A DNA stretch of 35,168 nucleotides from an uncultured Propionibacterium sp. (GTDB lineage Bacteria; Actinomycetota; Actinomycetes; Propionibacteriales; Propionibacteriaceae): positions 1 through 35,168 of the forward strand of contig CALMKG010000607.1 in NCBI GenBank assembly GCA_937867175.1, in the 5' to 3' direction. The position numbers were made by a program, and so were the translations under genes. Under the pieces are notes generated by a model. The model was given only the letters and a program-made list of their open reading frames with translations, did no database searches and was not told where the DNA came from. Below are positions 9,004-35,168 of the stretch, one piece after another; the stretch's first letter is position 1; every line of letters begins with the position of its first letter.

Positions 9004-9180
9004 GGAGATGGTCCTGCTTCCTCTCGCCCAAAGGCGATGAGGCGCGACGACGCCCCACGGGCGGTGCGTGCATCGTCTGAACCTCATCGTAAGCCTGATA
9101 CACGAATCCGGACCCGACGTCTTTTACCCGGGTCGCTTCAACGGGTCAGGTGCTCGTCTCTGCCCAATCCCGTCGTCCCA

Positions 9181-9310: not shown

Positions 9311-9321
9311 CACACGGTGTG
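9311..9321. repeat. Perfect palindrome CACAC-G-GTGTG before the relaxase
   Basis: Five-base arms (9311-9315 and 9317-9321) around a single G, directly after the polypyrimidine tract and 60 bases before the relaxase start. It may be an operator or part of a transfer origin; the function is inferred from position only. Confidence 0.45.
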
Positions 9322-9380
9322 CAGATCGAGGGGGCTGTGGAGAAGGACGCGCACCTGAGCGCTGTGGGACGGAAACGGCC

Positions 9381-13370: not shown

Positions 13371-13688
13371 GTGACCGACGATCTCTCCCTCTTCGGCGAC
13401 GACGCGAGGCCAGAGCCTGTTAAGACGCCGAAGGCGCCGACTCCGATCGCAGATTGGCAGGTGGACCTGCTTCGCAAGGCACTCGACGCCCGCGGCCTGA
13501 CCTCCATGCAGCACCGCCAGGAGGCGATCGAAATGGCTGCTGGCCGGCCTGTGGAGTCGTTGCGCGCACTGACACATGAGGAGGGCCTCCAGGTGCTTTC
13601 GCGCCTTGGCGAGCAGCCCGCGGCCAGTGGACCGAAGTCCTCGGCCTGGAACGAGCGCGAAGAGGACACCTGGATCGATCGCCTCTGA
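13371..13688 (+). CDS. Small conserved-looking soluble protein of unknown function
   Basis: A protein of 105 aa from a GTG at 13371, three bases after the preceding stop. Acidic N- and C-terminal ends (DDLSLFGDD and NEREEDTWIDRL) flank a central helical region of about 50 residues (WQVDLLRKALDARGL, then ALTHEEGLQVLSRLG). That core loosely resembles the helical repeat unit found in phage GemA/gp16-type proteins and as a tail on some recombination proteins, a similarity I judge by eye only. No enzyme motif is visible. The likely partner is the preceding membrane-protein gene; both form the last genes of the relaxase module before the BREX operon. The start is supported by spacing rather than by a clear ribosome site. 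Confidence 0.65.
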   Translation: MTDDLSLFGDDARPEPVKTPKAPTPIADWQVDLLRKALDARGLTSMQHRQEAIEMAAGRPVESLRALTHEEGLQVLSRLGEQPAASGPKSSAWNEREEDTWIDRL

Positions 13689-13712
13689 GCGCAAGCAGCG
13701 TTCCGATTCGGT

Positions 13713-13756
13713 CCACAGTGACGGTGGGTTGTGGAAACATCTGCATCGTCCGTCAC
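13713..13756 (+). promoter_or_regulatory. Inverted repeats upstream of pglW, candidate BREX operator/promoter
   Basis: A perfect 7-bp inverted repeat, GTGACGG (13718-13724) and CCGTCAC (13750-13756), is separated by 25 bases. Overlapping it is CCACA (13713-13717) with TGTGG (13730-13734). This lies 45-90 bases before the pglW start, where the BREX promoter is expected. TTGTGG at 13729-13734 could be a -35 element, but no good -10 is obvious. No dedicated regulator gene lies in the operon. Confidence 0.45.
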
Positions 13757-13800
13757 ATTCACCCGCAGCCCCGGTGGCAGCAAGCAGATTCCAAGGATCC

Positions 13801-17973: not shown

Positions 17974-20900
17974 TCGACTCCGCCGCCCTCCTGAAGGACC
18001 TCAAGGCACAGCTCAAGCTGGTCCAGGCCGACCTTCGTCTCCGCGCCGACGACAAGGCCGACCGCTGGGGCGCCCGCTTGCAGGAGGAGTACGCCGAGGC
18101 CCGCCGCCGCGAGCGCACTGGCCACTCCTGGGTCGTGTGGCGCGACAACGAGGTGGACCAGGCAGCAGTCGCCTGGCTGATCGCGATGACGTTCGTGCGC
18201 TTCTGTGAGGACAACGACCTGCTGGCCGGTGCGCGCCTCGACGGCAACCCGGCACCTGTCGGCTGGATCGCCGGCCCGGGCGACCGCACCGCCCGCGCGG
18301 AGGAGAACCTCACCGCCTACTTCCGGGAACACCCGACTCACAACCGCCGCGACTGGCTCCGCCAGGCCTTCACGGTGCTTGCCGCGCAGCCGGCGGGCAA
18401 GGCCGTCGTCGACACCTCCCACAACCCCGTTTGGGTCGCCGACATCAGCGCCGAGCGCGCGACAGCGTTGATCGACTTCTGGCGCACCACCGACGCCGAC
18501 GGCAACCTCGTCCACGACTTCACCGACGACGCCCTCGACACTCGATTCCTTGGCGACCTCTACCAGGACCTCTCCGACCACGCGCGCAAGACCTACGCCC
18601 TGCTGCAGACCCCTGTCTTCGTCGAGGAGTTCATCCTCGACCAGACGCTGACTCCTGCACTCGCTGAGTTCGGCCTTGAGGGCATCAAGCTCATCGACCC
18701 CACCTGCGGATCGGGCCACTTCCTGCTCGGCGCGTTCCAGCGCCTCGTCGACCAGTGGCAGGCGGAGGCGCCCGCCCTCGACCCGAAGGAGCGCGTACGC
18801 CGCGCCATGGACTCCATCCACGGCGTCGACCTCAACCCCTTCGCCGTCGCGATCGCGCGCTTCCGCCTCACCGTCGCCGGTCTGCTCGCAATGGGCGAAC
18901 GATCCCTCGTCGGTGTGCCCAACCTCGGCTTCCACCTCGCCATCGGCGACTCCCTCCTCGGCGAGCTCGGCGGCGCGCCCGAAGGATTCCAGTTCGAAGA
19001 CGAGGAATCAGAGACCTACCTCTACGACACCGAGGACCTCAAGGAGTACGCCGGCATCCTCAAGCCTGGCCAGTACCACGTGGTCGTCGGTAACCCTCCC
19101 TACATCACGGTCAAGGACCCCGCGCTAAACGCCCTCTATCGAAGCATCTACAGAACGGCTTTTAAGGAGTACCAACTCACCGCGCCGTTTATGGAACTTC
19201 TCTTCCGGCTTGCCGTCCGAGGGGAGCCGGGTAAGCCCGCTGGCTTCGTCGGGCAGATCACCGGCAACGGTTTCATGAAACAGGACTTCGGCAAGAAGGT
19301 AATCGAAGACCTTTTCGGCGGTTTTCACGAAGGCAACCCGGTAGACCTTGCGCTCGTGGTAAATACCGAGGGCGCGCACATCCCTGGACACGGCACGCCC
19401 ACCGTAATTATTGTCGGTCGCCGACGTCGGCCATTCGGTGACTCTGTGCGCGCGGTGCTGCACCTTCGTGGCGAACCTAAGGAGCCGGATGACCCCGCGC
19501 GAGGAAAGGTGTGGACAGAGATCGTCGATCACTACGCCACGCCCGGATTTGTAGGAAACTACATCGCCGTTGCTGACGTCGCCCGCGGAATCCTCTCGAC
19601 TTATCCATGGCATCTGTCCGATGACACACGTGCGGCTGTTATGGAGCAGATGATTTCAGCCAGCTCCCGAAAGCTCTCGAATGCGGTCGACGTCTTTGGG
19701 TACACCGGGCAGACCAATGCCGACGGGGCCTTCCTGGCGCCTGCTAGCGCGCTCGCTCGCAGGAATGTGGAACCGGACTTGTGCCGCTACTTCCTTACTG
19801 GCGAGGATGTTCGCGACTATGTTGCGCGACCCGGCAAGGCTTCGCTTTTCCCATATCGCGGGGCAAAGCTTGTTGACATTGCGTCCGCGCCTGGACTGTT
19901 GAGATGGCTGTGGCCCGTACGCACCATTACGTGGGCGCGAGCGACCTTCTCGAAGAGGACATACAAACAGGAAGGGCGAACCTGGTGGGAGTGGCACCAG
20001 GTGTCCCCGGACCGAATGGGGACGTGGGCAATTACCTATCCCCGAGTTGCAACCGTTCAACATTTCGCCTTTGTTCAATTCGATCCGGCCTTCAACCGAG
20101 AAGCATCCTTCTTGCAGCTGCCGCCGGGATCCGGCGAGGGCGAACATCATGAGCTGTTGGGCTTGCTGAATAGCTCCCTGTCCACGTTCTGGCTGAAGCA
20201 GGTTTGCCACAATAAGGGCAATGGGGGCATCGGGGGCGGAATCGGCGACGAAGACTGGGAGCCTCGATACGAGTTCACCGGAACTAAGCTCGAACAGTTC
20301 CCCCTGCCAGCGGCCCTGCCGCATGAGCGGGGACGGGCGCTCGACGCCTACGCTCACGCACTGGAGGCCGCAAGGCCTCGCGAGGTAGTCGACAACTGGG
20401 TCAGTCGTGGATCAGGTGACCTGCGGACGGCTTTGATGGTCGGCGAGACAGCGTTCCGCCAGGCGCGGAAGGCGATGATTTTCGAACAGGAGGAGCTGGA
20501 CTGGGAGACGTACCAGCTCTACGGGCTCGTCGACGAGAATCTGACGTACACCAGTGGTGAAATGAACGAACTTGCGCTCGGCGAGCGCGCGTTCGAAGTG
20601 GCGCTCGCCCGTCGAGTGGAGGCAGGCGAGGAAGAGACCGCGTGGTTTGCCCGGCACAGATCAACGCCGATCACGGAAGTTCCAACCCAGTGGCCGCCGA
20701 GCTACCGAGCCGTGGTGGAGCGCCGTCTCGACTTGATCGACTCGGATCCGACCATCCGACTCTTGGAAAGGCCCGAGTTCAAGCGTCGCTGGCTAGTCAC
20801 GCCTTGGGACGCGCAGCTCAAGGAGGCGCTCGAGACTGCAATCCTCGATCGTCTCGACGCACCGGAGCTATGGCGCGACGGGCAGGGTCCGGTCACCCGG

Positions 20901-21578
20901 TCCGCGGCGGAGATCGCTGATCTGCTGCGCGGGGACGCGGTGCTTCGCGAGCTGGTCGAGGTCCTGACCGGTGACGCTGAGCCGGACCTCGCCAAGGTGC
21001 TGGGCTCGCTGGTGGCCGGCGAGGCGGTGCCATACCTCGCCGCTCACCGCTACAAGCCGTCTGGACTGGAGAAGTTCCGCGCCTGGCAACAGGTGTGGGA
21101 CCTGCAGCGGCGGGAGGACGCGGGGGAGAAGGTCGACATCCCGGTGCCCCCGAAGTACGCCACGGCCGACTTCAAGAAGGTCGAGTACTGGAAGGCCCGC
21201 GGCAAGCTCGACGTACCGAAGGAGCGGTTCGTCCTGTATCCGGACCTGCGCCGCGAGGGGGACAACACCGTCGTGCTCGGCTGGGCGGGCTGGGACCACA
21301 AGGACCAGGCGTTGGCGTTGGCGCGTGAGTTCCCGACCCAGGAGGCGCTCGGCGCCAGCGACGATCTGCTGACCCAGATGGTCGCCGGGCTGGTCGAGCT
21401 CGAGCCATGGGTGCACCAGTGGCACTCCGAGATGGATGCCTCGTTCGGTGTCAGTCCGGCCGATGCCATCACCGGCGTCATCGACCAGCAGCTCGGCCGC
21501 CTCGAGACGACCCGTGATGCGGTCACCGCTTGGACGCCGCCAGCGGCCGTCCGCGGCCGGCGTCCCAAGAACGCGTAG
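17970..21578 (+). CDS. pglX: PglX, adenine-specific DNA methyltransferase of type 2 BREX
   Basis: A protein of 1202 aa from a GTG at 17970, overlapping the pglW stop (GTGA) with GAAGGAAA upstream. The N-terminal helical region is followed by the SAM-binding motif LIDPTCGSGHFLLGAF (D243) and the amino-methyltransferase catalytic motif NPPY (375-378). The variable target-recognition and C-terminal regions follow. PglX methylates adenine in a non-palindromic site to mark self DNA, and it is needed for BREX defence. The segment from about 19110 to 20700 has lower GC and more A/T-ending codons than the rest (see separate entry), which suggests an exchanged specificity domain. The frame is unbroken through it, so the gene appears functional. 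It ends 15 bases before pglY. Confidence 0.95.
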   Translation: MIDSAALLKDLKAQLKLVQADLRLRADDKADRWGARLQEEYAEARRRERTGHSWVVWRDNEVDQAAVAWLIAMTFVRFCEDNDLLAGARLDGNPAPVGWIAGPGDRTARAEENLTAYFREHPTHNRRDWLRQAFTVLAAQPAGKAVVDTSHNPVWVADISAERATALIDFWRTTDADGNLVHDFTDDALDTRFLGDLYQDLSDHARKTYALLQTPVFVEEFILDQTLTPALAEFGLEGIKLIDPTCGSGHFLLGAFQRLVDQWQAEAPALDPKERVRRAMDSIHGVDLNPFAVAIARFRLTVAGLLAMGERSLVGVPNLGFHLAIGDSLLGELGGAPEGFQFEDEESETYLYDTEDLKEYAGILKPGQYHVVVGNPPYITVKDPALNALYRSIYRTAFKEYQLTAPFMELLFRLAVRGEPGKPAGFVGQITGNGFMKQDFGKKVIEDLFGGFHEGNPVDLALVVNTEGAHIPGHGTPTVIIVGRRRRPFGDSVRAVLHLRGEPKEPDDPARGKVWTEIVDHYATPGFVGNYIAVADVARGILSTYPWHLSDDTRAAVMEQMISASSRKLSNAVDVFGYTGQTNADGAFLAPASALARRNVEPDLCRYFLTGEDVRDYVARPGKASLFPYRGAKLVDIASAPGLLRWLWPVRTITWARATFSKRTYKQEGRTWWEWHQVSPDRMGTWAITYPRVATVQHFAFVQFDPAFNREASFLQLPPGSGEGEHHELLGLLNSSLSTFWLKQVCHNKGNGGIGGGIGDEDWEPRYEFTGTKLEQFPLPAALPHERGRALDAYAHALEAARPREVVDNWVSRGSGDLRTALMVGETAFRQARKAMIFEQEELDWETYQLYGLVDENLTYTSGEMNELALGERAFEVALARRVEAGEEETAWFARHRSTPITEVPTQWPPSYRAVVERRLDLIDSDPTIRLLERPEFKRRWLVTPWDAQLKEALETAILDRLDAPELWRDGQGPVTRSAAEIADLLRGDAVLRELVEVLTGDAEPDLAKVLGSLVAGEAVPYLAAHRYKPSGLEKFRAWQQVWDLQRREDAGEKVDIPVPPKYATADFKKVEYWKARGKLDVPKERFVLYPDLRREGDNTVVLGWAGWDHKDQALALAREFPTQEALGASDDLLTQMVAGLVELEPWVHQWHSEMDASFGVSPADAITGVIDQQLGRLETTRDAVTAWTPPAAVRGRRPKNA
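19110..20700 (+). other. Compositionally atypical central segment of pglX (likely specificity region)
   Basis: Hand counts of single 60-base lines give about 48% GC at 19141, 58% at 19321 and 52% at 20041, against about 68% at 18901. Codons such as TTT, ATT, AAT and ACT, almost absent elsewhere, are frequent. The change begins right after the NPPY motif and covers the region expected to contact the target sequence. Boundaries are approximate. Confidence 0.6.
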
Positions 21579-21593
21579 GGAAGGATCGGAACC

Positions 21594-24500
21594 GTGTCCG
21601 ACACTGTGATCAACCAGGGACTCTCGCTGCCGCTCCGTGATGCCATCAGCATCCCGGAGGAGGTCCACGACGCCGACTTTGTCCTGCAGATCGACAAGGC
21701 ACAGGACCAGCCGACCCAGACGCTCAACGACTACGTCGTCACACCTGGTATTGCCGAGGCGTTCCGCCAGGCGCTCGCCCTCGTTCAGGCTGCCTTCGAC
21801 ACCACCAGCGCACGCGGCACCTTCGTGCACGGCTCCTTCGGAGCAGGTAAGTCCCACTTCATGGCGGTGCTGCACCTGCTCCTCACCGGCAACTCCCACG
21901 CCCGGGCCTTGCCTGGCCTCCAGGACGAGATCGCGCGGTACTCCGGCGTGCTGGACCGCAATCTGCTGGCCGTCGACTACCACTTCGTCGGCGCGCAGAG
22001 CGTCGAGTCCGCTCTCTTCGGCGGCTACCTGCGCACGGTGAAGGCCAAGCACCCAGACCAGCCTGCGCCCGTCCTGCACCGTTCCGACGCGCTCTGGGCC
22101 GACGGCGACCGGCTGCGCGCCACGATGGGGGACGACGTCTTCTTCGCTCCATTCAAGGACAGTTCCGGTGGCGGCTGGGGTTCCTTCGGATCGGCAGTGA
22201 CCGCAGAGACCTACGATGCCGCGCGGCACGCCGCACCGACCGATCCTGACCGGCTGCGGATCACCGCCGAGCTGGTCAAGCACTACTTCCAGTCCTCGGA
22301 GGTCACCGGCACCTGGCTCGACATGTCCACCGGCCTGCACGCGATGACCCAGCACGCCAAGAGCCTCGGCTACGACGGTGTCGTGCTCTTCCTCGACGAA
22401 CTGGTGCTGTGGCTGTCGGGGCACCTCGCCGACAGCACCTTCATCTCCACTGAGACCGAGAAGGTCGCCAAGCTGGTCGAGACTGGTGGCGGCACTCTGC
22501 CCGTCCCGTTGATCTCCTTCGTCGCCCGGCAGCGCAACCTCAAGGACTTCCTCGGCGGCGGAACTGGGGGCGCCGAACGAGTCGCCCTCGACGACGCGTT
22601 CCAGTGGTGGGAAGGACGCTTCGAGCGCATCACCCTCCCCGCGGCCGACCTCCCGGAGATCGTCCAACGACGTCTGCTGACGCCCTCGAGCGAGGAGGGC
22701 AAGTCGGCGATTGGCGCGGCGATCGCCAAGGTGAAGGCCAACCCGGCGGCGTACCGCCACCTCCTCACCGACGAGGCCGGCTCGAGCGGAGTCGACTTCG
22801 AGAAGGTGTATCCCTTCTCGCCGGCGCTCGTCGACGCGATGATCGCGCTGTCGGCGATCATGCAGCGCGAGCGCACCGCGCTCAAGATCATGAGCGAGCT
22901 GCTCGCGCACGGTCGTGACGAGCTCACCGTCGGTGACGTCATCGGCGTCGGCGACCTCTTCGACGAGGTGGTGCTCGGCAACTCCGAGCCCCTCACCGAC
23001 GACATGAGGGCCGTCTTCAAGGCAGCACGCACCTTCTATCAGCTGAAGATGCGGCCCTACCTGCTCAACAAGCACAGCCTCACCGAGACCACGGCCACCG
23101 GTCTTCCACGGGACCACGCCTTCCGACGCGACGACCGGATCGCCAAGACGCTCCTGATCGCGGCCATCGCGCCCGGCGCGGCCTCGCTGAAGGACCTCAC
23201 GGCGTCCCGGATCGCCGCCCTGAACTTCGGCTCCGTGAAGTCGATGATCCCCGGCCAGGAGGCCACCCAGCTGACCACGCAGGTCAAGCAGTGGGCCAGT
23301 GAGTTCGGCGAGATCAATGTCGGGCAGGGCGTCGACCCGATCGTCACGCTCACCCTGACCGGCATCGACTTTGACTCGATCCTCGTCCACGTCGACACCG
23401 AGGACACCTCCGCTAACCGGCGTCGGCTCATCCGTGACCTGCTCGTCGCTGAGGTAGGTGCCCGTCCTACTGGCGCCATTGGCAGTGACTACGCCCTGAC
23501 GCATGTCTGGCGCGGCCAGAAGCGTGACGTTGACGTCATCTTCGGCAACGTGCGCGATCGCCAACTGGTGCCTGACTCCCTGCTCCAGGCCGAAGGTGGG
23601 CGATGGAAGCTTGTCATCGACTACCCGTTCGACGACGACGCCGAGCACGGGCCTTCCGATGATCTCGTGCGCTTGCAGGACCTCAAGCACGAAAAGTTCG
23701 TGTCGGACACGGTGGTGTGGGTGCCGAACTTCCTCACCAGCGCCCGCATGGACGATGTTGGCAAGCTCGTGAAGCTCGACTATCTGCTGACAGGGAGCCG
23801 GTTCGACCAGTACTCCACGTCGCTTCCGGTCGCCGACCGTGAACCTGCACGCAGCCAGCTCCAGAACCAACGTGACTCGTTGCGCGAGCAGGTGATCGGC
23901 GCGCTCCGTCAGGCCTACGGCATCGACGCCGTCCGCGATGACCAGATCGGCGCGCGAGTCCCCGATGGGCGCAACTTCGAGACCTTAGCCGTCGGATACG
24001 AGCCGCTGAAGGTGTCCGCCTCCACGTTCGCCGCCGCCGCAGAGGCCGCGCTCGGAGGCGGTCTCGACGCGCGCTACCCGAACCACCCGACCGTGGACCG
24101 CGGCACCGACGAGGTGAAGAGAGGGGACCTCGTCGCCGTACTGGAGCTGGCCCGCAAGGCCATGGCAGCAGGCGGACGCATCGAAGCGGTCGATCGGCCG
24201 ACCGCGACCAAGGTGCGTCGCGTCGTCGACGGCTACGGCGTGGGTCGACTGGCCGAGGTGACCTACGTGCTCTCCGCGCCGTACTTCCGCTGGAACGACG
24301 ACTTCACCAAGGCCGCCGCCGGGGGCGACGTCACGGTCGCCGAGTTGCACGCTGCGCTGGCCGACTTCGGAATGACCAGGGACGCCGAGGACCTCCTCAT
24401 CCTGGCGTGGGCAGCGATGACCGACCGCGTGTTCAAGCGCCTGGGGAGTCTCGTGCCGAACCCGTCGATCGGGTCACTGGTCCCCGAGATGGTGCTCCAC

Positions 24501-25391
24501 GAGCCGGTGCTGCCGACACAGGACGAGTGGGAGACCGCACTCGCCCGCGCCAAGGCTCTCTTCGGGGTCGGCAGCAACGAGTACCACCTCTCCAGCGCGG
24601 CTGTGGAGCGCCTGAGCGAGCTCGGAGGCAAAGTCAAGGAGCTAGGCCCTGGCGTCGCGCGCCTTGTCGCCGCGCTGACCGATCACGCCGCGACTTTCGG
24701 ATTGGACGAAACCAGCCCTCGGCTGGCAACGGCCAAGCGTGCCCAGGACCTCTTCGCCGCCCTCGATCGGGCAGGAACGGCGATGGAGCGGATCCAGGTG
24801 CTCGCAGAGTTCGACCTCCCCGCCGAGCTCCCCGCGTTGGGGAACTCCATCGCGTCCGCATCGGCCGTCGCCGCGGCGATCGAGGGCGCCCAGTGGACCC
24901 TCATCGACCAACTGCCCACGTTGGGAGGAGACGCCGCAGACGAGGCGCTTGCCAGGCTACGCGTGGTCGCGGCCCACGAGGAGATGCATGACAGCCTGAG
25001 GCCTGCGCTGCTCGCGGCGTCGGATGCCGTCACGTCGATCCTCGTCGCGCGGAAGCCTCAGGGCAGCAAGGATGACGAGGAACGGCGCAAGGCCGAGGAG
25101 GCCGTGGCCGCGGCCAAGCGCCGCGCTGAGGAACAGGCCCGCCTGGTCGCCGAGCAGGAGCGACAGATCGCTGAGCAGCAGGCTGCGCTCGCCGCGCAGC
25201 AGGCTCGGTTGGAACAGGAGCAGGCCGAGCTGGCGCGCCGGAAGGCTGAGGCACAGCGACGGGCGGAGGAGACCCACACCCTGGAGCTCAAGCTGGCTGC
25301 GCAGATCGATGAGCTCGCCCAGAAGCTGGCCCACGAGCTCCAGGCCCCCGTTGAGGGCAAGAGCCTCCGGGTTGACTGGAGATGGGAGTGA
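21594..25391 (+). CDS. pglY: PglY (BrxC-like) P-loop ATPase of type 2 BREX
   Basis: A protein of 1265 aa from a GTG at 21594 with GGGAAGGATCGG just upstream. The N-terminal AAA-like domain has Walker [12 protein letters not shown] (K86) and Walker [13 protein letters not shown] (D268-E269). A long middle region of several hundred residues carries no motif I recognise, as in the BrxC/PglY family. The C-terminus (about 1155-1245) is a charged coiled coil rich in Ala, Glu, Gln and Arg, with repeats such as [18 protein letters not shown]. PglY is the large ATPase shared in type by all BREX systems and is thought to form a DNA-associated complex with PglZ and PglX. The gene overlaps pglZ by ten bases. 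One TTA codon lies at 23985. Confidence 0.94.
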
Positions 25392-28057
25392 GCCAGCTCG
25401 TCGACCAGGCCGCGACACGCGCCGTGGTGGTCTCCGCAGCCATGCTGCAGCAGAAGGCCGCGGACCTCGTGGCGTCCACCAGACCGGAACGTGCGCTGAT
25501 CCTCCGGGCGCGCCCCGAGTGGGCGGGGGCAGACCTCACGATCGGTGACCACCTGGTCCGCGTGGTGCCTGGTGTCTCCCAGCTCGCGATCCTCGAGGTC
25601 CTGACGGCGATGGGGGCCGACGACTACGTCATCATCCTCACCGACCGACCGCGCTCGGACCTTGGCGACGCCGTGCTGGCAAGGGCCTACAAGAACGACA
25701 TCCAGATGCCCGACGAGTGGCGTGCCGTTCCCCGCCTCTTCGGTGCACGCGAGGTCAGCCGAGAACTGCGCCGCCTGGATTGGGCAGCGACGGCTCTGCT
25801 TGACCACCAGCCGGTCGGGGGCTGGCCGAAGTCGGCCGACATAGCCGTGACCGACACGTTCGCGATCCAATCCCTTCTCAACGCCGTCCTCGGCATCGAT
25901 GTCACGACCGAGCTGGACGCAGCGGTCCTCATGTCAGCTCTGGGCCGCGGCCAGGTCCGCAACCGGTGGGCGGCTGTAGATGCGGGCCTGCGCCGGCATC
26001 TGATCGAGTGGGTGGAGACGGCGATCGGCCCATCGGGGGCGTTTGCGTTGAAGGTTGCTCAGCGGACCGAGCACGTCACCCCGCTCGCTGTGTCCCTCGC
26101 CCTTGACGTCCTCTGGCCCGATGACGGCGTGGTAGCCGACGAGGACCAGGTGGCAGCCCGGGTGCGCATCGAGCGCTTCATCGACGGCACGACCGTTCCG
26201 GTCGAGGCCGCCAAGGCGGCGGCTCGCATCGCGAAGGCGATCGTCCTCCGCGCCGACGGTGAGTCCGGGGGCGAGATCACCGTTGCCCTCAAGCAGGCCG
26301 AGGCGCTGCTCAGCGATATCGGCTGGACTGCGGGCGCCGAGCGGTCCTCGGTGCTGCGACCCGGATATCAGGCCAGGGTGCGGGCCTTGGCTGCCGCGCT
26401 CCAGGACGGCGGTGACGTCGAGGCAGCCCTGGTCGATGTCCACCGGCACCGGGATCGTGCAGACTCTGCCGCGCCGGACATGGCGGTGCGTCTCCACCGT
26501 TGGCTCGCCAACCCAGAGGCGCAGGCCACGGACCTAGCAGGCGACCTGGACCTTCAGATGCGGGATGGCGCCTGGGTCGATGCCGCTATCGGCGTCCTCT
26601 GGAGCGCATCGGACGACCCCGCGGTCTCAGCAGCCTATGCGGCGCTCGCGACCCAAGCACGAGCGCGCCGGACCACGCGCGACGCGGCGGCCGCCCATCG
26701 ACTGGCGCAGGCGGTCACCAACGGTCCAGCGGCCGTCCTCGGCCGCTCACCCATCGGTGTCGAGCGGATTCTCGGTGATGTCGTTGCGCCTTGGCGCAAC
26801 GAGGGCGTCCTCCTCGTTGTGTTAGATGGCCTGAGCTCAGCCATCGCGGTCTCACTCGCGGCAGAGGTATCCCGTCTCGGGCTCATCGAATTCGTCCCCG
26901 CGACAACGAAGCGGCGGATCGGCGCAGTGGCTGCCCTGCCCTCTCTCACCAACATCTCCCGTACGTCTCTGTTCTGCGGCCGGATCGCCAGCGGCACCGG
27001 CGAGGATGAGCGCAAGGGCCTGGCCGAGGCGTTTCCCGGCTCACGCACCTTCCACAAGGACGGGCTTCGAGCACCGAGTGGCGCAGCTCTGCCCCCGGAC
27101 GTCTTAGCCGCGATCGCGTCTACTCCGACCGAGGTTCCGGTCGTCGGCGTCGTCATCAACGCCATTGACGACGCCATGCACAAGAATGACGTGTCGGGAT
27201 GGAGCTGGGAGCTGGCCCAACTCGCACCCCTGCGCGCTCTCCTCGAGGCGGCGCTCAACGCACGCCGCACCGTCGTGATCACCTCTGACCACGGTCACGT
27301 CGTCGAGCGGTCGAGCGAAACGCTCGCTGCCCCCGGTGCTGACGCCCGGTGGCGACCCGTCCAGGCTGCGGCCGGCGAAGGCGAGGTCACTGTCTCAGGG
27401 CCGCGTGTGGTCACGCCTGACCACTCTGCTGTCCTGCTCTGGCGCGAGGACGCGCGCTTCGGGCCCAGGCGGGCCGGCTATCACGGCGGCGCCAGCCTTG
27501 CGGAGATCACCGTTCCCGTACTCGTCTTCCACCCAGCGACGGCGCTCTCCAGCACGGCTGATGGCTGGGTCCAGGCGCCCCCGCAGGCTCCGGATTGGTG
27601 GAACGACCCGGTCCAAACCGCACCGGACATCCCTGCTCGCCCCTCCAAGACGAGGAAGAAGGCGGCTACCGCCCCGCCAGCCGATGACGAAGGACTCTTC
27701 AGCGTCGAGGTCGCGAGCCAAGCGGCCACCCCCGCGCACTCGAACGACATCGTCGGGGCATTGATCAGCAGCCCGGCGTACGCCAGCCAACGCGCGATGG
27801 CGGGCCGGCGCGCTCTCTCCGACGGCCGGGTCGAGACATTCGTGCGAGCGCTGGCGGAGCGCGGTTTCCGCGCTCATCGCGACACGGTGGCTGCAGCACT
27901 TGGGGTTCCTTCCACCGACGTCGGGCAGATTCTGGCCGCGGTCAAACGCCTGCTCAACGTCGACGGGTACGACGTTCTCTCGCTCGACAGCGATGGCGTC
28001 ACCTACAAGATCGATGAGCAGCTTCTCCGCGACCAGTTCGGTCTCGGAGGGCGATGA
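25382..28057 (+). CDS. pglZ: PglZ, alkaline-phosphatase-superfamily protein of type 2 BREX
   Basis: A protein of 891 aa. The ATG at 25382 lies within the end of pglY and is preceded by TGACTGGAG. The PglZ domain is in the middle: [10 protein letters not shown] (D482, the nucleophile-region metal ligand) followed by [16 protein letters not shown] and, near residue 636, TSDHGHVVE with its metal-binding Asp and His residues. The N-terminal 400 residues are helical. The C-terminal 130 residues include a basic linker and a winged-helix-like part ([19 protein letters not shown]). PglZ is the marker gene of every BREX type. It has two TTA codons (26822 and 27104), one directly before the catalytic Asp codon. 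Its stop overlaps the brxD start by ATGA. Confidence 0.95.
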
Positions 28058-29376
28058 GCATGGCCGAGGTGGACATCAGCCCGCGGCGCCGACGCGACAT
28101 CATCGACGCGCTTCGGCGCGGCACCGTCCCCCAGCAGGGACTTGACGTGCTCGCTGTGGGCCTATCGCGGTTCGAGCACGCCATCGACGGCGAGCTCGCG
28201 GCGGTCCGAGACGGCGGAGCCGGCTTCAAAGCCGTGCGTGGCGAGTACGGCTCCGGCAAGACTTTCTTTGCGCGCTGGCTCACTGAAAGGGCCAAGAAGT
28301 CGAACTTCGCCACCGCAGAGATCCAAATCAGCGAGACCGAGACCCCGCTGCACAAGCTCGAGACGGTTTACCGCCGTGTCGTCGAGAACCTCGCCACGCC
28401 AACGACCACCTCGGGAGCGATCCGAGACGTGGTCGACGGGTGGTTCTACTTCCTCGACCAAGACGCAGGCGACGCAGGAGGGCCGGGTTCCCTCGAGCTG
28501 CTCGACAGGCGGCTGGCCGCGGTCTCCCGTGAGGCGCCGGCGTTCGCCGCGGTCCTCCGCTCCTATCGCCTAGCGCAACAGGCGGGCGATGCTCCCCAAG
28601 CTGAGGGCCTGCTTGCCTGGCTCGGCGGTCAACCGCACGTATCTGCATCGGTGAAGCGCGCCGCTGGCGTCCGAGGCGACCTCGACCACTTCGGCGCGCT
28701 CGGGTTCTTGCAGGGCCTCCTCACGGTCCTTCGCGACTCCGACTACTCCGGCCTGGTCCTGGTGCTTGATGAGGTCGAGACACTCCAACGGATGCGATCC
28801 GACGTACGGGAGAAGTCCCTCAACGCTCTGCGGCAGCTGCTCGACGAGATCGACGGCGGCCGTTTCCCTGGCCTCTATCTGGTGATGACCGGGACGCCGG
28901 CGTTCTTCGATGGCCAGCAGGGCGTGCAGCGACTGCCTCCGTTGGCTCAGCGGCTCCAGACCGACTTCCAGACCGACGCACGCTTCGACAACCCCCGTGC
29001 CGTGCAGATCCGACTGCCCGGGTTCAGCGCTGACTCACTCGTCGAGCTCGGTGCTCGAGTCCGTGACATCTTCGCGGCCGGCGCCGGGGACCCCGAACGA
29101 GTACGACGCGTGGTCGACGACGCCTACGTCGCGACGCTCGCCAAGGCCGTCGGCGGCGAGCTTGGAGGACGCACAGGCGTCGCACCCCGACTTTTCCTCA
29201 AGAAGCTGATCGCCGACGTTCTCGACCGCGTGGACCTCTTCGATGACTTCGACCCCCGGCGCGATTACCGGCTGACTGTCGACCCGAACGAGCTCACCGA
29301 GGTGGAGCTTGCTGCTCGAGTACGTGGCGCCGGTGGAGCGGTCGAATCGGTTGACGACATCGACCTGGAGCTCTGA
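28054..29376 (+). CDS. brxD: BrxD, ATP-binding protein of type 2 BREX
   Basis: A protein of 440 aa whose ATG overlaps the pglZ stop by four bases. A P-loop lies at GEYGSGKTFFARWL (K69) and Walker B at LVLVLDEVETL (D239-E240), followed by a sensor-like stretch GLYLVMTGTPAFFD. These are the signatures of the BREX system ATP-binding protein family (DUF2791) in the AAA+ class. The C-terminal third is likely helical with a small winged-helix end. BrxD is particular to type 2 and closely related BREX loci and lies, as here, between pglZ and the helicase gene, with which it probably acts. The gap to brxHI is four bases. Confidence 0.93.
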   Translation: MSMAEVDISPRRRRDIIDALRRGTVPQQGLDVLAVGLSRFEHAIDGELAAVRDGGAGFKAVRGEYGSGKTFFARWLTERAKKSNFATAEIQISETETPLHKLETVYRRVVENLATPTTTSGAIRDVVDGWFYFLDQDAGDAGGPGSLELLDRRLAAVSREAPAFAAVLRSYRLAQQAGDAPQAEGLLAWLGGQPHVSASVKRAAGVRGDLDHFGALGFLQGLLTVLRDSDYSGLVLVLDEVETLQRMRSDVREKSLNALRQLLDEIDGGRFPGLYLVMTGTPAFFDGQQGVQRLPPLAQRLQTDFQTDARFDNPRAVQIRLPGFSADSLVELGARVRDIFAAGAGDPERVRRVVDDAYVATLAKAVGGELGGRTGVAPRLFLKKLIADVLDRVDLFDDFDPRRDYRLTVDPNELTEVELAARVRGAGGAVESVDDIDLEL

Positions 29377-29380
29377 GCGA

Positions 29381-31447
29381 GTGTCGGGCGCGACCGGCCT
29401 CGACCCTGCCGTCGAGTATCACATCGTCAACTCGCTGGGCTGGCCCGGTCTACGCCCCTTGCAGGCTGCTGCCGTCGCCCCCGTTCGGGCAGGTGATGAC
29501 TGCGTCCTGCTCGCCCCGACTGCGGGCGGCAAGACGGAGGCGGCAGCGTTTCCGCTGCTGTCGCAGATGGCCGCCGACGGCTGGAGCGGCACGTCCGTCC
29601 TCTACGTCACGCCTTTGCGAGCGCTGCTCAACAACCTCCTGCCTCGACTGCAGGGCTATACCTCCTGGCTCGGGCGGACAACCGCGCTGTGGCACGGCGA
29701 CGTCGGCCCCGCCGAGCGTCGCCGGATCCTTGCGGAGCGGCCCGATGTACTCCTGACGACGCCCGAGTCGATCGAGGCCATGCTGGTCTCACGCGGCGTC
29801 GATCACAGGCGTTTCTTCGCGGGACTTCGGGCCGTGGTCATCGACGAGCTGCACGCCTTCGCCGGAGCCGACCGGGGGTGGCACCTGCTTGCCGTCCTGG
29901 AGAGGGTCGAGCGGATCATCGGTCGCAGGCTGCAGCGCATCGGCCTCTCGGCGACGATCGGCAATCCGCAGGCCGTGGGGGAGTGGATGCAGGGGTCCAC
30001 CGGTGGACGCCGCCATTTGCGCGTCGTCGAGGGCGCCGGAGTCTCGGCCGGGCCGGATCCTGAGGTGACGCTCGACTATGTGGGCAGCATGGAGAACGTG
30101 GCCACCGTCATCTCGCGCATGCACCGCGGCGAGAAGCGCCTGGTCTTCCTCGAGTCGCGACGGCGCGCAGAGGAACTTGCCTTCCTCCTGCGCGAGCGCG
30201 ACGTGCAGACCTATGTCTCCCACTCGTCTCTCTCCGTCGACGAGCGCCGGCGCTCGGAACAGGCGTTTGCGGAGGCCCAAGACACGGTCATCGTGGCCAC
30301 GTCCACCCTCGAGCTGGGCATCGACATCGGCGACCTCGATCGGATGATTCAGATTGACGCTCCCCGAACAGTTTCGTCGTTCCTGCAGCGCCTCGGGCGG
30401 ACGGGACGACGCGTAGGTGGCCGGCGCAATGCCTTGTTCCTGGCGACGACCCTCGATGGTCTCTTGGATGCGTCAGCCCTGTTGCTGCTCTGGCGGCGCG
30501 GCTTCGTCGAGGACGTCGTGGCGCCACCTCATCCTCGCCATCTCGCCTCGCAGCAGTTGCTGGCGCTCGCCCTTCAAGAGGGGAGGTTCGGCCCGTCGGC
30601 TATCTCGGACTGGTGGGGCGATCTGGCACTGATGACCGACGGACCGCAGGTGCTCGACTACCTGCGATCGGCGAACTTCCTGGTTGAAGACTCCGGCCTC
30701 TTCTCGATCGGCCCCCGCGCTGAGGAGGAGCTCGGAAAGCGGAACTTCATCGAGCTCCTTTCCTCGTTCGTCGCAGCCCCTGAGCTGCGCGTGGTCGCGG
30801 GCACCAAGGAGATCGGCTTCGTCTCACCGCTGTCGCTTCCCGCGCCGACCGATCGTGAGGTGAAGCCGCTGGTCCTCGCTGGCCGCGGCTGGCACATCCG
30901 CGACGTGGACTGGGACCGGTTCACCGTCTGGGTCGAGGAGGTGTCGGCGAAGGGCGACGTGAAGTGGCCTTCCGACGCGATCGCGCTGTCATATGAGATG
31001 ACCCAGGCGCGCCGCGAGGTCCTGCTCGGAGCGACTCCAGGTGTCGAGCTCTCGAAGCGAGTGCCGCAGGCGCTCGGCCGCCTGCGCGGGGATCACTCCA
31101 ATGAGGTGAGTCCCCGCGGACTCGTGGTCTGGCGTGGTGCCGAGAGCCAGAGGATCTGGACCTGGGCCGGGCTCAAGGCCAATGCCACCCTCCTAGCCGG
31201 ACTTGGACAGAGGGCCAAGGGCGTGGAGAACGACTTCGTCGATCTTCCACTCGACCTTGACCTCCGTGACAGCGACAGTACGGCGGTCCCCGACCCCGGA
31301 CCGGAGGCTATGGCCGGCCTGAAGTTCGCGGTTGCACTGCCGCCAGAACTGGCCGCAAGGACTCTCGGCGAGCGCTTGGCCGACCAGACGGGTGCGTTAG
31401 AGAGTCTCGATCGTCAGCTCATCCACAATGTCTGTTCAGGTCGTTGA
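29381..31447 (+). CDS. brxHI: BrxHI, Lhr-like superfamily 2 helicase of type 2 BREX
   Basis: A protein of 688 aa from a GTG at 29381, with GGAG ten bases before it; the open frame to 29309 lies over brxD and is ignored. Helicase motifs run in order: Q-like region LRPLQAAAV, motif I APTAGGKTEAA (K51), motif Ib LLTTPESIEA, motif II DELH (155-158), motif III LSATIG, motif V TSTLELGIDIGDLD and motif VI QRLGRTGRR. This is the Lhr-type DEAD/DEAH arrangement. The C-terminal 300 residues lack the large Lhr extension but have their own accessory domain. brxHI is the last gene of the BREX operon; it ends 18 bases before the convergent DUF262 gene. One TTA codon lies at 31397. Confidence 0.94.
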   Translation: MSGATGLDPAVEYHIVNSLGWPGLRPLQAAAVAPVRAGDDCVLLAPTAGGKTEAAAFPLLSQMAADGWSGTSVLYVTPLRALLNNLLPRLQGYTSWLGRTTALWHGDVGPAERRRILAERPDVLLTTPESIEAMLVSRGVDHRRFFAGLRAVVIDELHAFAGADRGWHLLAVLERVERIIGRRLQRIGLSATIGNPQAVGEWMQGSTGGRRHLRVVEGAGVSAGPDPEVTLDYVGSMENVATVISRMHRGEKRLVFLESRRRAEELAFLLRERDVQTYVSHSSLSVDERRRSEQAFAEAQDTVIVATSTLELGIDIGDLDRMIQIDAPRTVSSFLQRLGRTGRRVGGRRNALFLATTLDGLLDASALLLLWRRGFVEDVVAPPHPRHLASQQLLALALQEGRFGPSAISDWWGDLALMTDGPQVLDYLRSANFLVEDSGLFSIGPRAEEELGKRNFIELLSSFVAAPELRVVAGTKEIGFVSPLSLPAPTDREVKPLVLAGRGWHIRDVDWDRFTVWVEEVSAKGDVKWPSDAIALSYEMTQARREVLLGATPGVELSKRVPQALGRLRGDHSNEVSPRGLVVWRGAESQRIWTWAGLKANATLLAGLGQRAKGVENDFVDLPLDLDLRDSDSTAVPDPGPEAMAGLKFAVALPPELAARTLGERLADQTGALESLDRQLIHNVCSGR

Positions 31448-31465
31448 ACGCGCTGACATCGGTCG

Positions 31466-32524
31466 TCATGACGCCCCCAGATACTTGTCGAGGAAGCGCT
31501 CAAGCACGCCAAGCCTGAAGGTGAGCGCGTAGCCGTCGTTGGGCGTCTGGGCCAAGCCGTCGAACTCGATGTAGTCCTTCAGCTCAGGCGGCAGGGCCTC
31601 CTCGTGCTCAAAGCGGTCCAGAGACCGCGCCTCGTTGAAGGCGACGAAGGCGGTGCGGGATGGCATCGTCTCGGACGCGCGGTGGCGCTTTGCGAAGGAC
31701 AGGAAGTAGACCGAGATCATCCCGACGTTGGCTAGCAACCTGTCGCCATCCTCAAACGCTGGAACCATGGCGTCGAGGACCGCTGTCACGGTGTCACTGA
31801 GCTGAGCCACGTGCGCCTCGTTAGCCGAGTGGGCATCCCAAAACTCGTCGAGTTGGCGCTTCTTCACGTCCGACGGCCCGCCGTGGTCGGACCAGAGCAG
31901 AAACTTCAGGGCAAGGTCGTAATGCCGATAGCGAGTGTTGTCGAAGGGCAGCTTCTTGACGAAGAATGGGTGGTCCACGAGGCCCCGGACAACTGGGCGC
32001 AGCGCACCGCCGCGACCGTTCCGCTTCTCCGCGGCATTGAGGGGCACTGCTTCGTTGAGGCGGCTAAACATTTCCTCGATCATCTCGACGTCATCCGTAC
32101 GGATGACGCACACGTCGAGGTTCATCGAGGTCAGAAAGGCGGCCAAGAGGTCGTCGGATCTCTCAAGCTCGCTGAAGGTTTTGCCAGCTGCTGTGGTGGA
32201 GCCATCGTCAAAGAGCACAAAATCGTCGGCCAACGCAAAATCTCCGTCCAGGTAGCCCCAGATGGCTTCGAGACGCTGCCTGCCGTCGATCAGCGAGTAT
32301 CGAATGCGTCGGCCGTCGACGACAAGTGGGGTCGAGTGCTCGTGGAGATAGATCTTCGGGATGTCGAAGCCGTTAAGAAGGCTGTCGAGCAGCAGCCGCT
32401 TCTTGTCGACCGACCAGACCGCGCCCTGGCGCTGGTAGGGCGGATCCAACTGGATCTGGGCCCGCATGCGGTTTAGATAGGCGACGTTGCTGTTCCGCAT
32501 CGCCGAGAGGGTGAACGAACTCAT
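31466..32524 (-). CDS. DUF262-domain protein (GmrS-like N-terminal fold)
   Basis: A protein of 352 aa, ATG at 32524 overlapping the upstream stop by four bases. DUF262 (ParB/sulfiredoxin-like fold) hallmarks are at the N-terminus: PPYQRQGAVW (28-37), LIDGRQRLEAIW (78-89, the DGQQR-type nucleotide-handling box) and, later, SRLNEAVPLNAAEKRN. DUF262 is the N-terminal half of GmrSD-type modification-dependent enzymes. The HNH nuclease domain (DUF1524) usually fused after it is not visible here, so this is a stand-alone version whose C-terminal half (about 200-352) is helical and of unknown role. Pairing with an FRG gene and position next to BREX suggest a defence function (inference). Base composition is slightly less GC-rich than the BREX genes. 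Confidence 0.85.
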   Translation of the reverse strand: MSSFTLSAMRNSNVAYLNRMRAQIQLDPPYQRQGAVWSVDKKRLLLDSLLNGFDIPKIYLHEHSTPLVVDGRRIRYSLIDGRQRLEAIWGYLDGDFALADDFVLFDDGSTTAAGKTFSELERSDDLLAAFLTSMNLDVCVIRTDDVEMIEEMFSRLNEAVPLNAAEKRNGRGGALRPVVRGLVDHPFFVKKLPFDNTRYRHYDLALKFLLWSDHGGPSDVKKRQLDEFWDAHSANEAHVAQLSDTVTAVLDAMVPAFEDGDRLLANVGMISVYFLSFAKRHRASETMPSRTAFVAFNEARSLDRFEHEEALPPELKDYIEFDGLAQTPNDGYALTFRLGVLERFLDKYLGAS

Positions 32525-33270
32525 TTCCGGTACATCTCCTTGATGTGGTCCGCCAGGTGCCCAAGATCGGGATACACGGTGCTTGCCGTCACATTCAGAT
32601 CTGCGAGCTCGCCAAGGATCGAGGCCTTGCTGGCCGCGGGGACCCGCCAACTCCGGACATTCGGATCCGAAACCAAGTCTTCACCCAGTTGGCAGATCGT
32701 GAACGTGCCGACCTGCGCAGTCACACGATCGAAGTAGCGCATCGACGTCACAGCCAAGGGGCCAATCCGCGGCCCCGCAGGCGCCTCGGGGAGATACGCA
32801 TCAAGGTGGTTGTCGTGGCCTAACACCAGCAATCCCGGGCCGCTCGGGTAGTTCGATCGGTTGAGGCCCTCAGGGTCCAGCTCGAAGAGCCGGCCGTCGG
32901 CCTGGCCGTCGGATGGTGTCTCGCAGGCAAAGAAGAGACCGACCAAGGGATGTTCACTCCAGTCAAGGAGGCGGGTCGGCAGACCATGGTGTTGGCCGAG
33001 CGCAAGCCATTCCCAACCACCCATCGGCCTGAGTGAAGTCCGATTGACGGCGTCCCTCATGAACTGTTTGAGCATCGTGACCTCGTCGTCGAGGTGGCCC
33101 GAGTTCCGAGCGACCCCTGGCTGCAGGCCCCAGTTGCTGTTGGCCTGGCCACGGAACCAGCGGCGGCCGGATGCCTGGGAACCAGCAACAGATCCCAAGA
33201 GATCCACGACGCTCCGGATCTCGATGTCCTCCGAGGATTCCGTCGCATCTGCCTTCGTGCTCTCGGCCAC
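32521..33270 (-). CDS. FRG-domain protein
   Basis: A protein of about 249 aa. The start is uncertain: GTG at 33270 is preferred, GTG at 33288 is possible, and the frame further upstream is only a shadow of the integrase gene. The FRG signature is clear: RRWFRGQANSNWGLQPGVAR (residues 37-56), then WLALGQHHGLPTRLLDW (88-104) and LVGLFFACE. The C-terminal half is beta-rich, with an acidic/hydrophobic end. FRG proteins are widespread in mobile islands; their biochemical activity is not established. The stop overlaps the DUF262 start (ATGA), so the two are translated together and probably act together. Confidence 0.85.
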   Translation of the reverse strand: MAESTKADATESSEDIEIRSVVDLLGSVAGSQASGRRWFRGQANSNWGLQPGVARNSGHLDDEVTMLKQFMRDAVNRTSLRPMGGWEWLALGQHHGLPTRLLDWSEHPLVGLFFACETPSDGQADGRLFELDPEGLNRSNYPSGPGLLVLGHDNHLDAYLPEAPAGPRIGPLAVTSMRYFDRVTAQVGTFTICQLGEDLVSDPNVRSWRVPAASKASILGELADLNVTASTVYPDLGHLADHIKEMYRK

Positions 33271-33346
33271 GACGCAAGTCTGCCGCACCGAATGGCCGCC
33301 CGGATGTGATCGGCCGAATCCAACCGACGACGGAGCGGCTCCTCCG

Positions 33347-34663
33347 CTACTGAGCTCCACGCGAGGCCCCGGGCCGCCGCCCTTCGAGGAGATCGTCGAG
33401 AGCCGCGGCGGCCCGTGACTGGGCGTCGTGCAGAAGGTGTGCGTAGGTATTGAGAGTGACTTGGGCGCTCGCGTGCCCGAGCCGCTCCTGGACGACCTTG
33501 ACGGATTGTCCTGCCTCGAAAAGCAGCGAGGCGTGTGTGTGCCGGAGTTCGTGGACCGTGAGGACCGGTAGATCTCGGTCGGGGTGCGCCTCCCGGTAAT
33601 GCTTCTGCACGCGCTTGAACGCCGCGTGGAGACTTGACTGGGTCGCCGCACGCCCGGGCATCGGCGGGAAGATCGGGTCGTCGGCACGGAGCCCGCGTAG
33701 CGGAGCGACGTTCCAAGTCCCGCCCGCGAGAAGGCCAGGCAGCTCCTTGCGCCAGCCCTGCAGCAGATCGGCGCAGGTCTTGTCGAAGGTCACCGTCCGC
33801 GGGCGCCCACCCTTGACCCGGCCGATCGCGTAGCGCTCGCCGAGGGGGAGCGTCTCGTCGTAGTGCAGCGCTCGCTCGACGCGCATCTCGTTCTTGTTCA
33901 TGTCGAGGTCCCCCCACCGGAGAGCAAGGATCTCGCCGGAGCGGAGCCCGGTCCGGCTCAGGACGATCCAGGCCCGCGCGAAAGGCTCGTCCTCGGCGAG
34001 TGCCCAGTCGCAGAAGTGCGTCAGCTGATCGACGTTCCAGATGACGAAGGGCTTTACGCGCCGCGCGCTCTCGCCGCGCGGTCGGCCGGCGTGCTTGGAG
34101 TTCGCGGGATTCTTGAGGATGAGACCCTCGTCGACGGCGGCGAGGAAGATCGAGTTCACCCAGTTCGCGTAGCGCGCGACGGTCGATGGCGCGAGGCCCT
34201 TCTGTCGCCTCTTCCGAGACGGGATCTGTTTCGTGCCGTTCTCGATACCTCGGTAGGCGGCGGCCAGGTCGGTGGGGCGGATGTCCGCCATCCGCACCGA
34301 GCCGATGTACGGGTCCATCGCCTCGAGCGCGCGCTGGATATACAGACGGGTGCCGTTGCTGACGGGATGCCCTTCGAGCCAACGCCGCCCGTAGGCGCCG
34401 AACGTGTCGCGGCTGACGATCTGAGGCACGCCGCGCAGGGTGTCGGCCCGGAGCAGCGTCAGTCCGTCCTCAGCGTCGGCATAACTGGTGAACCCCGCGC
34501 GCGACACCGTCCGCGTCCCGTCGTCGGGGCGCCGCGGATCGATCGGGACCTCGATCTCGTACCGCCACCGCCTGCCAGCCTTGGTCTGGTACGCCGTGAT
34601 CGACCCCGTGCCCTTCTCCCGGCGACTGCGCCCGCCGGCGCTCACCGGCCGCCGGCCGGTCAT
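33347..34663 (-). CDS. int: Tyrosine-recombinase integrase
   Basis: A protein of 438 aa from an ATG at 34663 that overlaps the excisionase-like gene's stop by four bases. Three domains are seen: an N-terminal arm-binding beta region (about 18-75, GTGSITAYQTKAGRRWRYEI), a core-binding SAM-like helical domain (about 85-190) and the catalytic domain (about 205-420). Catalytic residues are R241 (TGLRSGEIL), K284, H371 and R374 (HELRHTHAS), H397 (GHAS) and the nucleophile Y407 (NTYAHLL). It should integrate and excise the element at a site close by, since int genes usually lie next to the attachment site. Transcription runs into the element, away from the HAD gene. Confidence 0.95.
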   Translation of the reverse strand: MTGRRPVSAGGRSRREKGTGSITAYQTKAGRRWRYEIEVPIDPRRPDDGTRTVSRAGFTSYADAEDGLTLLRADTLRGVPQIVSRDTFGAYGRRWLEGHPVSNGTRLYIQRALEAMDPYIGSVRMADIRPTDLAAAYRGIENGTKQIPSRKRRQKGLAPSTVARYANWVNSIFLAAVDEGLILKNPANSKHAGRPRGESARRVKPFVIWNVDQLTHFCDWALAEDEPFARAWIVLSRTGLRSGEILALRWGDLDMNKNEMRVERALHYDETLPLGERYAIGRVKGGRPRTVTFDKTCADLLQGWRKELPGLLAGGTWNVAPLRGLRADDPIFPPMPGRAATQSSLHAAFKRVQKHYREAHPDRDLPVLTVHELRHTHASLLFEAGQSVKVVQERLGHASAQVTLNTYAHLLHDAQSRAAAALDDLLEGRRPGASRGAQ

Positions 34664-34893
34664 GCCGACCCCGACGAGGTGATGCCGAACGCGGCCAAGA
34701 ACAGCCGCCGGGGGATGAGCACGCGCCGGCCCAGTCGGATCGCCGGGATGGTGCCGTCCTCGATGGCGTGGTCAACCGTCCGGGCGTCGACCGTCAGGAG
34801 CGCGGCCACCTCGGCCCGGTTCAGGACCTCGCGGTCGGTCGTTCGTGCTTCCGCCCAGGTCGTGATCGGGGCGGCGATCGTGTGGTTGCTCAT
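34660..34893 (-). CDS. xis: Excisionase-like small HTH protein
   Basis: A protein of 77 aa if read from the ATG at 34893. The frame is open further upstream, with an ATG at 35001 as another candidate, but the conserved part needs only the short form. A MerR/excisionase-type helix-turn-helix covers about 22-70: VLNRAEVAALLTVDARTVD, then IPAIRLGRRVLIPRR, the recognition-wing pattern typical of Xis/HTH_17 proteins. Such proteins bend DNA at the attachment site and favour excision. It is coupled by ATGA to the integrase. The palindrome at 34894-34906 directly abuts this start and would cover its ribosome site, suggesting control of this gene. Confidence 0.85.
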   Translation of the reverse strand: MSNHTIAAPITTWAEARTTDREVLNRAEVAALLTVDARTVDHAIEDGTIPAIRLGRRVLIPRRLFLAAFGITSSGSA

Positions 34894-34906
34894 GCACCTG
34901 AGGTGC
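34894..34906. repeat. 13-bp palindrome, copy 1 (GCACCTGAGGTGC)
   Basis: Six-base arms around a central G. It is 11/13 identical to copy 2 at 34987-34999 and directly upstream of the excisionase start. A candidate operator or accessory-protein site at the element end. Confidence 0.6.
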
Positions 34907-34986
34907 GAGCGGGCGACCACTGGAGGGATCTCAACCCCGCCAGATGTCAGCCGTTCACCGGGATGCCCGTCAATGGGGCAGGGGGC

Positions 34987-34999
34987 GCACCTAGGGTGC
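34987..34999. repeat. 13-bp palindrome, copy 2 (GCACCTAGGGTGC)
   Basis: Five-base arms GCACC/GGTGC around TAG. Its centre is 93 bp from that of copy 1. Two near-identical copies in this short region suggest one binding protein, with the excisionase-like protein or an element repressor as candidates. Confidence 0.6.
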
Positions 35000-35021
35000 A
35001 TAGTCGCATCGATAGTCGCAT
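35000..35021 (+). repeat. Tandem 10-bp direct repeat ATAGTCGCAT
   Basis: Two exact copies at 35000-35009 and 35012-35021 with a 12-bp period, close to the second palindrome and just before the HAD gene. They could be arm-type integrase or excisionase sites, or lie in the HAD gene promoter. Short spaced repeats of this kind are common at phage and ICE attachment ends. Confidence 0.5.
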
Positions 35022-35041
35022 GGAGCTTGTTGGAGGGCATT

Positions 35042-35168
35042 CTGAACACCGCGTCTTCTCGTGAACCTGCAGGTCAGCACGAGGAAGCTGGTCCGAGGCT
35101 GCCCGCCGTTGTCTTGTGGGACATGGACGGCACGTTGGTCGACACCGAGCCCTACTGGATCGACGCCG
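35042..35168 (+). CDS. HAD-family phosphatase, 5' part only (flanking host gene)
   Basis: The last 42 codons in the window read in one frame to the haloacid dehalogenase motif I, VVLWDMDGTLVDTEPYW, with nucleophile and acid Asp residues (27 and 29 from the listed start). This fits the beta-phosphoglucomutase-like/phosphatase branch. The start is unclear. GGAGG at 35032-35036 precedes a CTG at 35042 (followed by AACACCGCG), but TTG at 35027 or 35030 is also in frame, and no in-frame ATG or GTG lies in the right place. I list the CTG because of the spacing. The gene is a common housekeeping type in actinobacteria and probably marks host DNA beyond the element's end. Confidence 0.8.
   Translation, partial: MNTASSREPAGQHEEAGPRLPAVVLWDMDGTLVDTEPYWIDA

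Follow-up and report, generated by a model that had tools for sequence, protein, structure and literature searches.

A recurrent FRG–DUF262 gene pair beside a BREX cluster as a candidate two-gene antiphage module

In a contig of an uncultured Propionibacterium sp. (35,168 nucleotides, the whole of which is here called the window), an FRG-domain gene is followed by a stand-alone DUF262 gene. The present analysis suggests that the two genes form an autonomous, horizontally moving abortive antiphage module in which the DUF262 protein gates an FRG effector, a reading to which we assign a probability of about 0.6. Taken part by part, a defence role for the pair is likely, a division of roles in which DUF262 is the gate and FRG the effector is probable, and NAD+ as the target of FRG is a guess at about even odds. 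The pair is read as a module because its gene order is constant and the genes are coupled, because they are co-inherited and occur in defence and prophage settings, and because both proteins have conserved motifs and folds assigned by homology or modelling. The initial annotation had already proposed a possible separate defence module, and its interpretation as a whole is partly supported.

The pair and its surroundings in the window

The features of the locus are collected in Table 1. The initial annotation described two genes sharing a 4-base ATGA overlap, lying opposite and convergent to BREX and between it and the integrase; the overlap is present and the coordinates confirm the arrangement. 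The pair is convergent to BREX because BrxHI (plus strand, stop at 31447) and DUF262 (minus strand, stop at 31466) end toward each other, with 18 bases between their stops. GTG codons at 33288 and 33360 are also in frame with FRG, and no clear ribosome-binding site was seen before the GTG at 33270. Within 31380–33400 no sigma-70-like promoter was found, and the single terminator-like match there represents no excess over shuffled sequence; a search for att-site repeats gave none that was convincing. A TrwC-type relaxase/helicase is encoded at 9150-12905, upstream of the BREX/Pgl cluster, and, taken with the integrase on the far side, is suggestive of an element, mobilisable or conjugative, that bears both defences.

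The window is a complete contig from a genome assembly that is fragmented, and its FRG gene is the only one in that genome. There are eight further DUF262 matches, all outside this contig and in longer GmrSD-like frames; contigs C228 and C428 each carry two long tandem DUF262 genes (~620 and 770-820 aa), which are GmrSD-like enzymes.

Table 1. Features of the FRG–DUF262 locus and its flanks
Feature	Position	Strand	Basis or remark
FRG-domain gene	32521..33270	minus	249 aa, GTG start likely; Pfam FRG, PADLOC PDC-S15 and model
Stand-alone DUF262 gene (GmrSD_N, ParB/Srx fold)	31466..32524	minus	352 aa, ATG at 32524; Pfam, PADLOC and model
ATGA stop/start overlap of FRG and DUF262	32521..32524	minus	translational coupling
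Tyrosine integrase, directly upstream of FRG	33347..34663	minus	Pfam Phage_integrase, 79.5 bits
Excisionase-like HTH_17 protein, overlaps integrase	34660..35049	minus	HTH_17, 29.1 bits
BREX/Pgl cluster: PglW-like kinase, PglX, BrxC/PglY, PglZ, BrxD, BrxHI	13576..31447	plus	context, outside module
FRG motif W38-F-R40-G41, first core strand (E38-42 in model)	33148..33159	minus	R40 G41 family-wide, 33/33 pairs
FRG motif Q93 H94 ... T99 R100 L L D103 W S/T105	32956..32994	minus	conservation
FRG motif R182 ... A185 Q186. G188. F190	32701..32727	minus	conservation
DUF262 motif D80 G81 R82 Q83 R84, counterpart of DGQQR	32273..32287	minus	D80, G81, Q83, R84 in 33/33 pairs

Distribution, inheritance and genomic settings

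A lack of conserved adjacency in other genomes had been named in the initial annotation as grounds for abandoning the proposal; FRG and DUF262 are neighbours in 35 loci, so that objection fails and the pairing is not due to chance. A query with DUF262 alone found FRG directly upstream at 16 of the 19 species-genome loci and at 15 of the 26 viral-contig loci; these pairs, together with the window, L086, L087 (longer-flank loci that supersede L011 and L049) and a Hymenobacter plasmid, make up the 35. Near copies (L029 of L028, L061 of L060) were dropped before counting, and 33 pairs are distinct, falling below 85% DUF262 identity. In all 35, FRG comes first, the genes share one strand and their spacing is -11 to +16 nt. 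By record titles the pairs are found in at least five bacterial phyla, namely Actinomycetota, Pseudomonadota, Bacteroidota, Bacillota and Chloroflexota. Among the viral contigs, all 15 loci scoring at least 354 bits with the DUF262 subfamily profile have FRG and none of the 11 scoring 221 bits or less does, a split that follows in part from the making of the profile, for which paired members were the main source; in the species-genome set, L038 and L039 score highly without FRG.

Among five plasmid records examined, one (L021) carries the pair, and phage records gave seven weak DUF262 matches. An FRG query of the viral contigs returned 21 pattern matches, none confirmed as a relative, and E. 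coli genomes searched with the DNA of a Pseudomonas pair gave no match. In a sample of the phylum, 13 of 396 genomes encode FRG; the pair is present in 2 of these 13, so that 11 FRG genomes are without it; among 147 genomes of the family, the window's DUF262 type is confined to its own genome, and two others have distant DUF262s with different neighbours. Such a patchy distribution is that of mobile genes. In L033 (5892-6974), the FRG frame extends upstream into the apparent beginning of a sugar-hydrolase gene, an arrangement reminiscent of an insertion of the pair at this site.

Distance matrices of FRG and DUF262 are correlated across the pairs (Mantel r 0.78; 0 of 5000 permutations as high). 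When the 33 paired FRGs are placed in a tree with 20 solo FRGs (L088–L105, used in place of short loci, plus L023 and L024), they group together with one long-branched solo (L088), and the paired/solo label changes twice, compared with 16.3 times under shuffling. The DUF262 tree contains the same subclades, with the FRG-less L038 and L039 nested inside paired clades, as expected of FRG loss; DUF262 can therefore persist alone. The nearest relative of the window pair, in Knoellia flava (~77%/72% identity), adjoins restriction–modification genes, and DNA similarity to it is confined to the pair (31701–33186). Measured against this copy, pN is 0.16 for FRG and 0.19 for DUF262 and pS is 0.79 and 0.76, with synonymous change saturated; by this sequence comparison (pN < pS), both genes appear to be under purifying selection.

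Defence genes and mobile elements recur around the pairs. Gabija adjoins L043, a DpnI-like REase L032, type II restriction–modification genes L026, L027 and L073, and Dcm, Vsr and a weak Eco29kI match L086. Eco29kI-type restriction enzymes with C5 methyltransferases adjoin L027, L073 and L086 (the L086 match being weak), one of which belongs to a different DUF262 subclade. An integrase lies within 3 kb in at least 6 of the 33 pairs, the integrase counts being lower bounds because the profile missed at least one (L075). Several pairs are carried by prophages: L062, L066 and L077 have repressor or S24-type genes alongside, tail tape-measure genes adjoin L062 and L063, and terminases adjoin L070. 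L031, L035, L087 and others have ordinary-looking chromosomal neighbours with no defence gene in view.

Of the 33 pairs, 9 have a C5 cytosine methyltransferase gene no more than 3 kb away, against 0 of 20 solo FRG loci and 0 of 15 FRG-less DUF262 loci. The Fisher p values are 0.0097 against the solos and 0.0008 against all 35 controls, to be read with a methyltransferase profile built from eight of the nine pair-linked enzymes and with flank lengths and lineages that differ between the sets. The FRG-less controls are 15 of 18 DUF262-without-FRG loci, L058 and L059 being left out for short flanks and L084 as a near copy of L083; the GmrSD-length DUF262 genes L002–L009 stand outside these 18. 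The nine linked pairs belong to two subclades, a split noticed after the fact. One contains L026, L086, L027, L060 and L062 and, as a sixth member, the window pair, which lies next to BREX; the other contains L069, L072, L073 and L077. The other 23 pairs are without a C5 methyltransferase. At L069, L072 and L077 the methyltransferase gene immediately precedes FRG at a distance of 2 to 15 nt, and no restriction enzyme was recognised. At L060 a 178-aa gene (1617-2153) with no Pfam match lies between methyltransferase and FRG, and it is possibly an unrecognised restriction enzyme. Clade-specific scans and a class-wide genome search yielded no new intact member of either subclade, so the methyltransferase link stays post hoc: L114 is truncated by the start of its contig, L112 is without FRG, and L110, a further pair near L064–L066 by score and outside the counts, has no C5 methyltransferase. 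An adenine methyltransferase motif occurs in 2 of the 33 pair loci, L070 and the window (with L029 taken for its near copy L028).

The two proteins and their relatives

The identification of the first protein as FRG holds: a Pfam scan finds FRG (PF08867, 87.5 bits against a cut-off of 25) and nothing else, and the protein matches 14 PADLOC PDC-S15 models, the best at 162.3 bits. PDC-S15, which from its name we take to be a single-gene candidate, is the same FRG protein type and is uncharacterised in PADLOC, whereas here FRG has a constant DUF262 partner. The structural model of FRG (pLDDT 79, pTM 0.78) has no significant Foldseek match in the PDB (best E 0.32), and a sequence search of the PDB with FRG profile A2 gave no match. 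When the model was re-aligned to PDB structures, the best score was a middling Z of 5.8, to Tpt1 with ADP-ribose-1''-phosphate, and values of Z <8 may reflect a common structural arrangement; judging by their titles, we take all 50 matches in that list to be proteins of the ADP-ribosyltransferase (ART) fold. The predicted structure thus agrees, at weak Z and short of proof, with the published placing of Frg in the ART superfamily (PMC9503650).

R40, G41, H94, D103, S/T105, R182 and Q186 occur without exception in the 33 pairs and, among the 20 solo FRGs, in 19 or 20; R40 is in 19 solos, with one gap, D103, S/T105, R182 and Q186 are in all 20, and Q93 and R100 are likewise in all 33 pairs. R40, S/T105 and Q186 may together form an ART-like site. 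Transferase-type ARTs carry Glu where FRG has Q186, and FRG catalysis may therefore differ or be absent.

The DUF262 protein matches GmrSD_N (PF03235) at 53.9 bits against a cut-off of 33.2. The Pfam scan found no second domain and no DUF1524/HNH half, and a DHIYP-like motif is absent, as the earlier description of a stand-alone protein implied. Its model (pLDDT 90) resembles BrxU (Foldseek E 9.6e-5, Z 8.6), SspE (Z 7.9) and ParB (Z 6-7), and sulfiredoxin was also matched. The protein has in common with GmrSD, BrxU and SspE the DUF262 domain, the DG[Q/R]QR motif and the ParB/Srx fold, but lacks the DUF1524/HNH half. A PDB sequence search with DUF262 profile A1 returned three polyketide synthase rows, which we took as chance. 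The best PADLOC model for DUF262 was NsnA (80.7 bits), a partial match over residues 18-232 of 352; NsnA is presumably a Menshen (Nsn) gene name. The PD-T4-2_A model scored 45.2 bits.

Menshen thus shares an NsnA-type DUF262 with the window pair, with partial coverage here, but in the available part of its description a predicted OLD nuclease stands beside DUF262 (PMC10952713), whereas here the partner is FRG and there is no third gene; the neighbours of the window pair are FRG, the integrase and BrxHI, and an OLD-type nuclease or other Nsn genes are absent. PD-T4-2 likewise joins DUF262 to an effector-like domain, which is listed as HEPN (PMC10952713) and here is FRG; deletion of PD-T4-2 from its native strain is reported to have greatly increased T4 plaquing. 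The statement in the initial annotation that neither protein has an established function was too strong. The portion of PMC9503650 available treats Frg as a clade of the ADP-ribosyltransferase superfamily, a possible antiviral NADase and a proposed immune effector, with no mention in that portion of a DUF262 pairing; PMC10952713 describes the DUF262 of BrxU and of SspE as a switch with NTPase activity; and PADLOC lists the PDC-S15 candidate.

Stand-alone DUF262 relatives also occur beside other kinds of partner. SIR2_2 adjoins DUF262 in L025 (a Sinorhizobium plasmid) and L044 (Aquisphaera), where DUF262 is followed directly by a ThsA-like SIR2 gene (L025:3953-5855, L044:6965-8880). RiboL-PSP-HEPN adjoins it in L059 and L082, the latter a viral contig in which DUF262, RiboL-PSP-HEPN and a CAP12/Pycsar-type TIR protein lie in a row (4842-8246). 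RelA_SpoT adjoins it in L058, from the window's own family, where a stand-alone DUF262 gene is followed by a RelA/SpoT-domain gene (168-2292), possibly a further DUF262-gated effector pair. Known defence systems use SIR2 effectors against NAD+ and HEPN effectors against RNA. Across these loci DUF262 is the constant element and would seem to be the switch, with the changing partner as the weapon.

A proposed mechanism and its alternatives

We propose that the FRG and DUF262 proteins would form a complex in which DUF262, as an NTP-dependent sensor with a ParB/Srx NTPase fold, would keep FRG off until a phage-derived signal arrives, probably DNA in a particular state; in GmrSD, BrxU and SspE, this part reads modified DNA and triggers nucleotide turnover. 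Released FRG would consume NAD+ or ADP-ribosylate a target, thereby aborting infection, and the same DUF262 switch would be common to sister modules with a SIR2, HEPN or RelA/SpoT effector. For the two methyltransferase-linked subclades only, a tentative and rather doubtful extension is that DUF262 reads DNA methylation, the wrong state releasing FRG onto NAD+ or its target. In this form of restriction without cutting, the adjoining methyltransferase would mark self, the pair would replace or back up a restriction nuclease, and BREX would supply the mark in the window.

Two coupled genes in constant arrangement, carried on islands, plasmids and prophages and including a predicted ART-like toxin fold, would also fit a toxin–antitoxin system in which FRG is an ART toxin, DUF262 its antitoxin, perhaps acting via its NTPase, and any defence results from toxin release. 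We consider this unlikely, in that DUF262 is a large protein whose nucleotide-handling motif is complete in 33 of 33 pairs and which resembles sensor or switch enzymes, FRG occurs without DUF262 in many genomes, and two DUF262s persist without FRG. A toxin gene in first position, as FRG would be, is moreover the less usual toxin–antitoxin order. Less probable still is that DUF262 is itself a nuclease or nickase and FRG an accessory for phage recognition or regulation: ParB/Srx proteins are reported as nucleases or nickases in the available parts of two papers (PMC12839542, PMC11980606), but the FRG core residues are conserved like a catalytic site, solo FRGs included, and the exchange of FRG for SIR2, HEPN or RelA/SpoT points to the partner as the effector.

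The 18-base gap between the BrxHI and DUF262 stops, on one island, and the example of BrxU, a DUF262 protein that works beside BREX according to the part available of PMC10952713, might suggest an accessory of the neighbouring BREX. We rejected this highly improbable reading: none of the 34 other pair loci matches the window's BREX proteins (tblastn E<=1e-5), and the nearest relative resembles the window at the DNA level over the pair only. The proposal that the module is separate from BREX is upheld by a pair that is kept without BREX, is co-inherited, appears to be under purifying selection, and lies near restriction–modification, Gabija and integrase genes and in prophages.

The autonomous, DUF262-gated FRG module that we favour would be a Menshen/PD-T4-2-like system with a new partner. 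Its novelty is provisional: no paper treating both the FRG domain and DUF262 was found in the open-licence literature, which does not cover work on Menshen domain polymorphism (2025) in which FRG may figure. If the methyltransferase link is true, it joins DNA-modification sensing to metabolite-depleting abortive defence. FRG, a large uncharacterised domain family, acquires a role that can be tested and a partner that is conserved, and DUF262 is supported as a general switch for unrelated effectors, namely HNH, OLD, HEPN, SIR2, RelA/SpoT and FRG.
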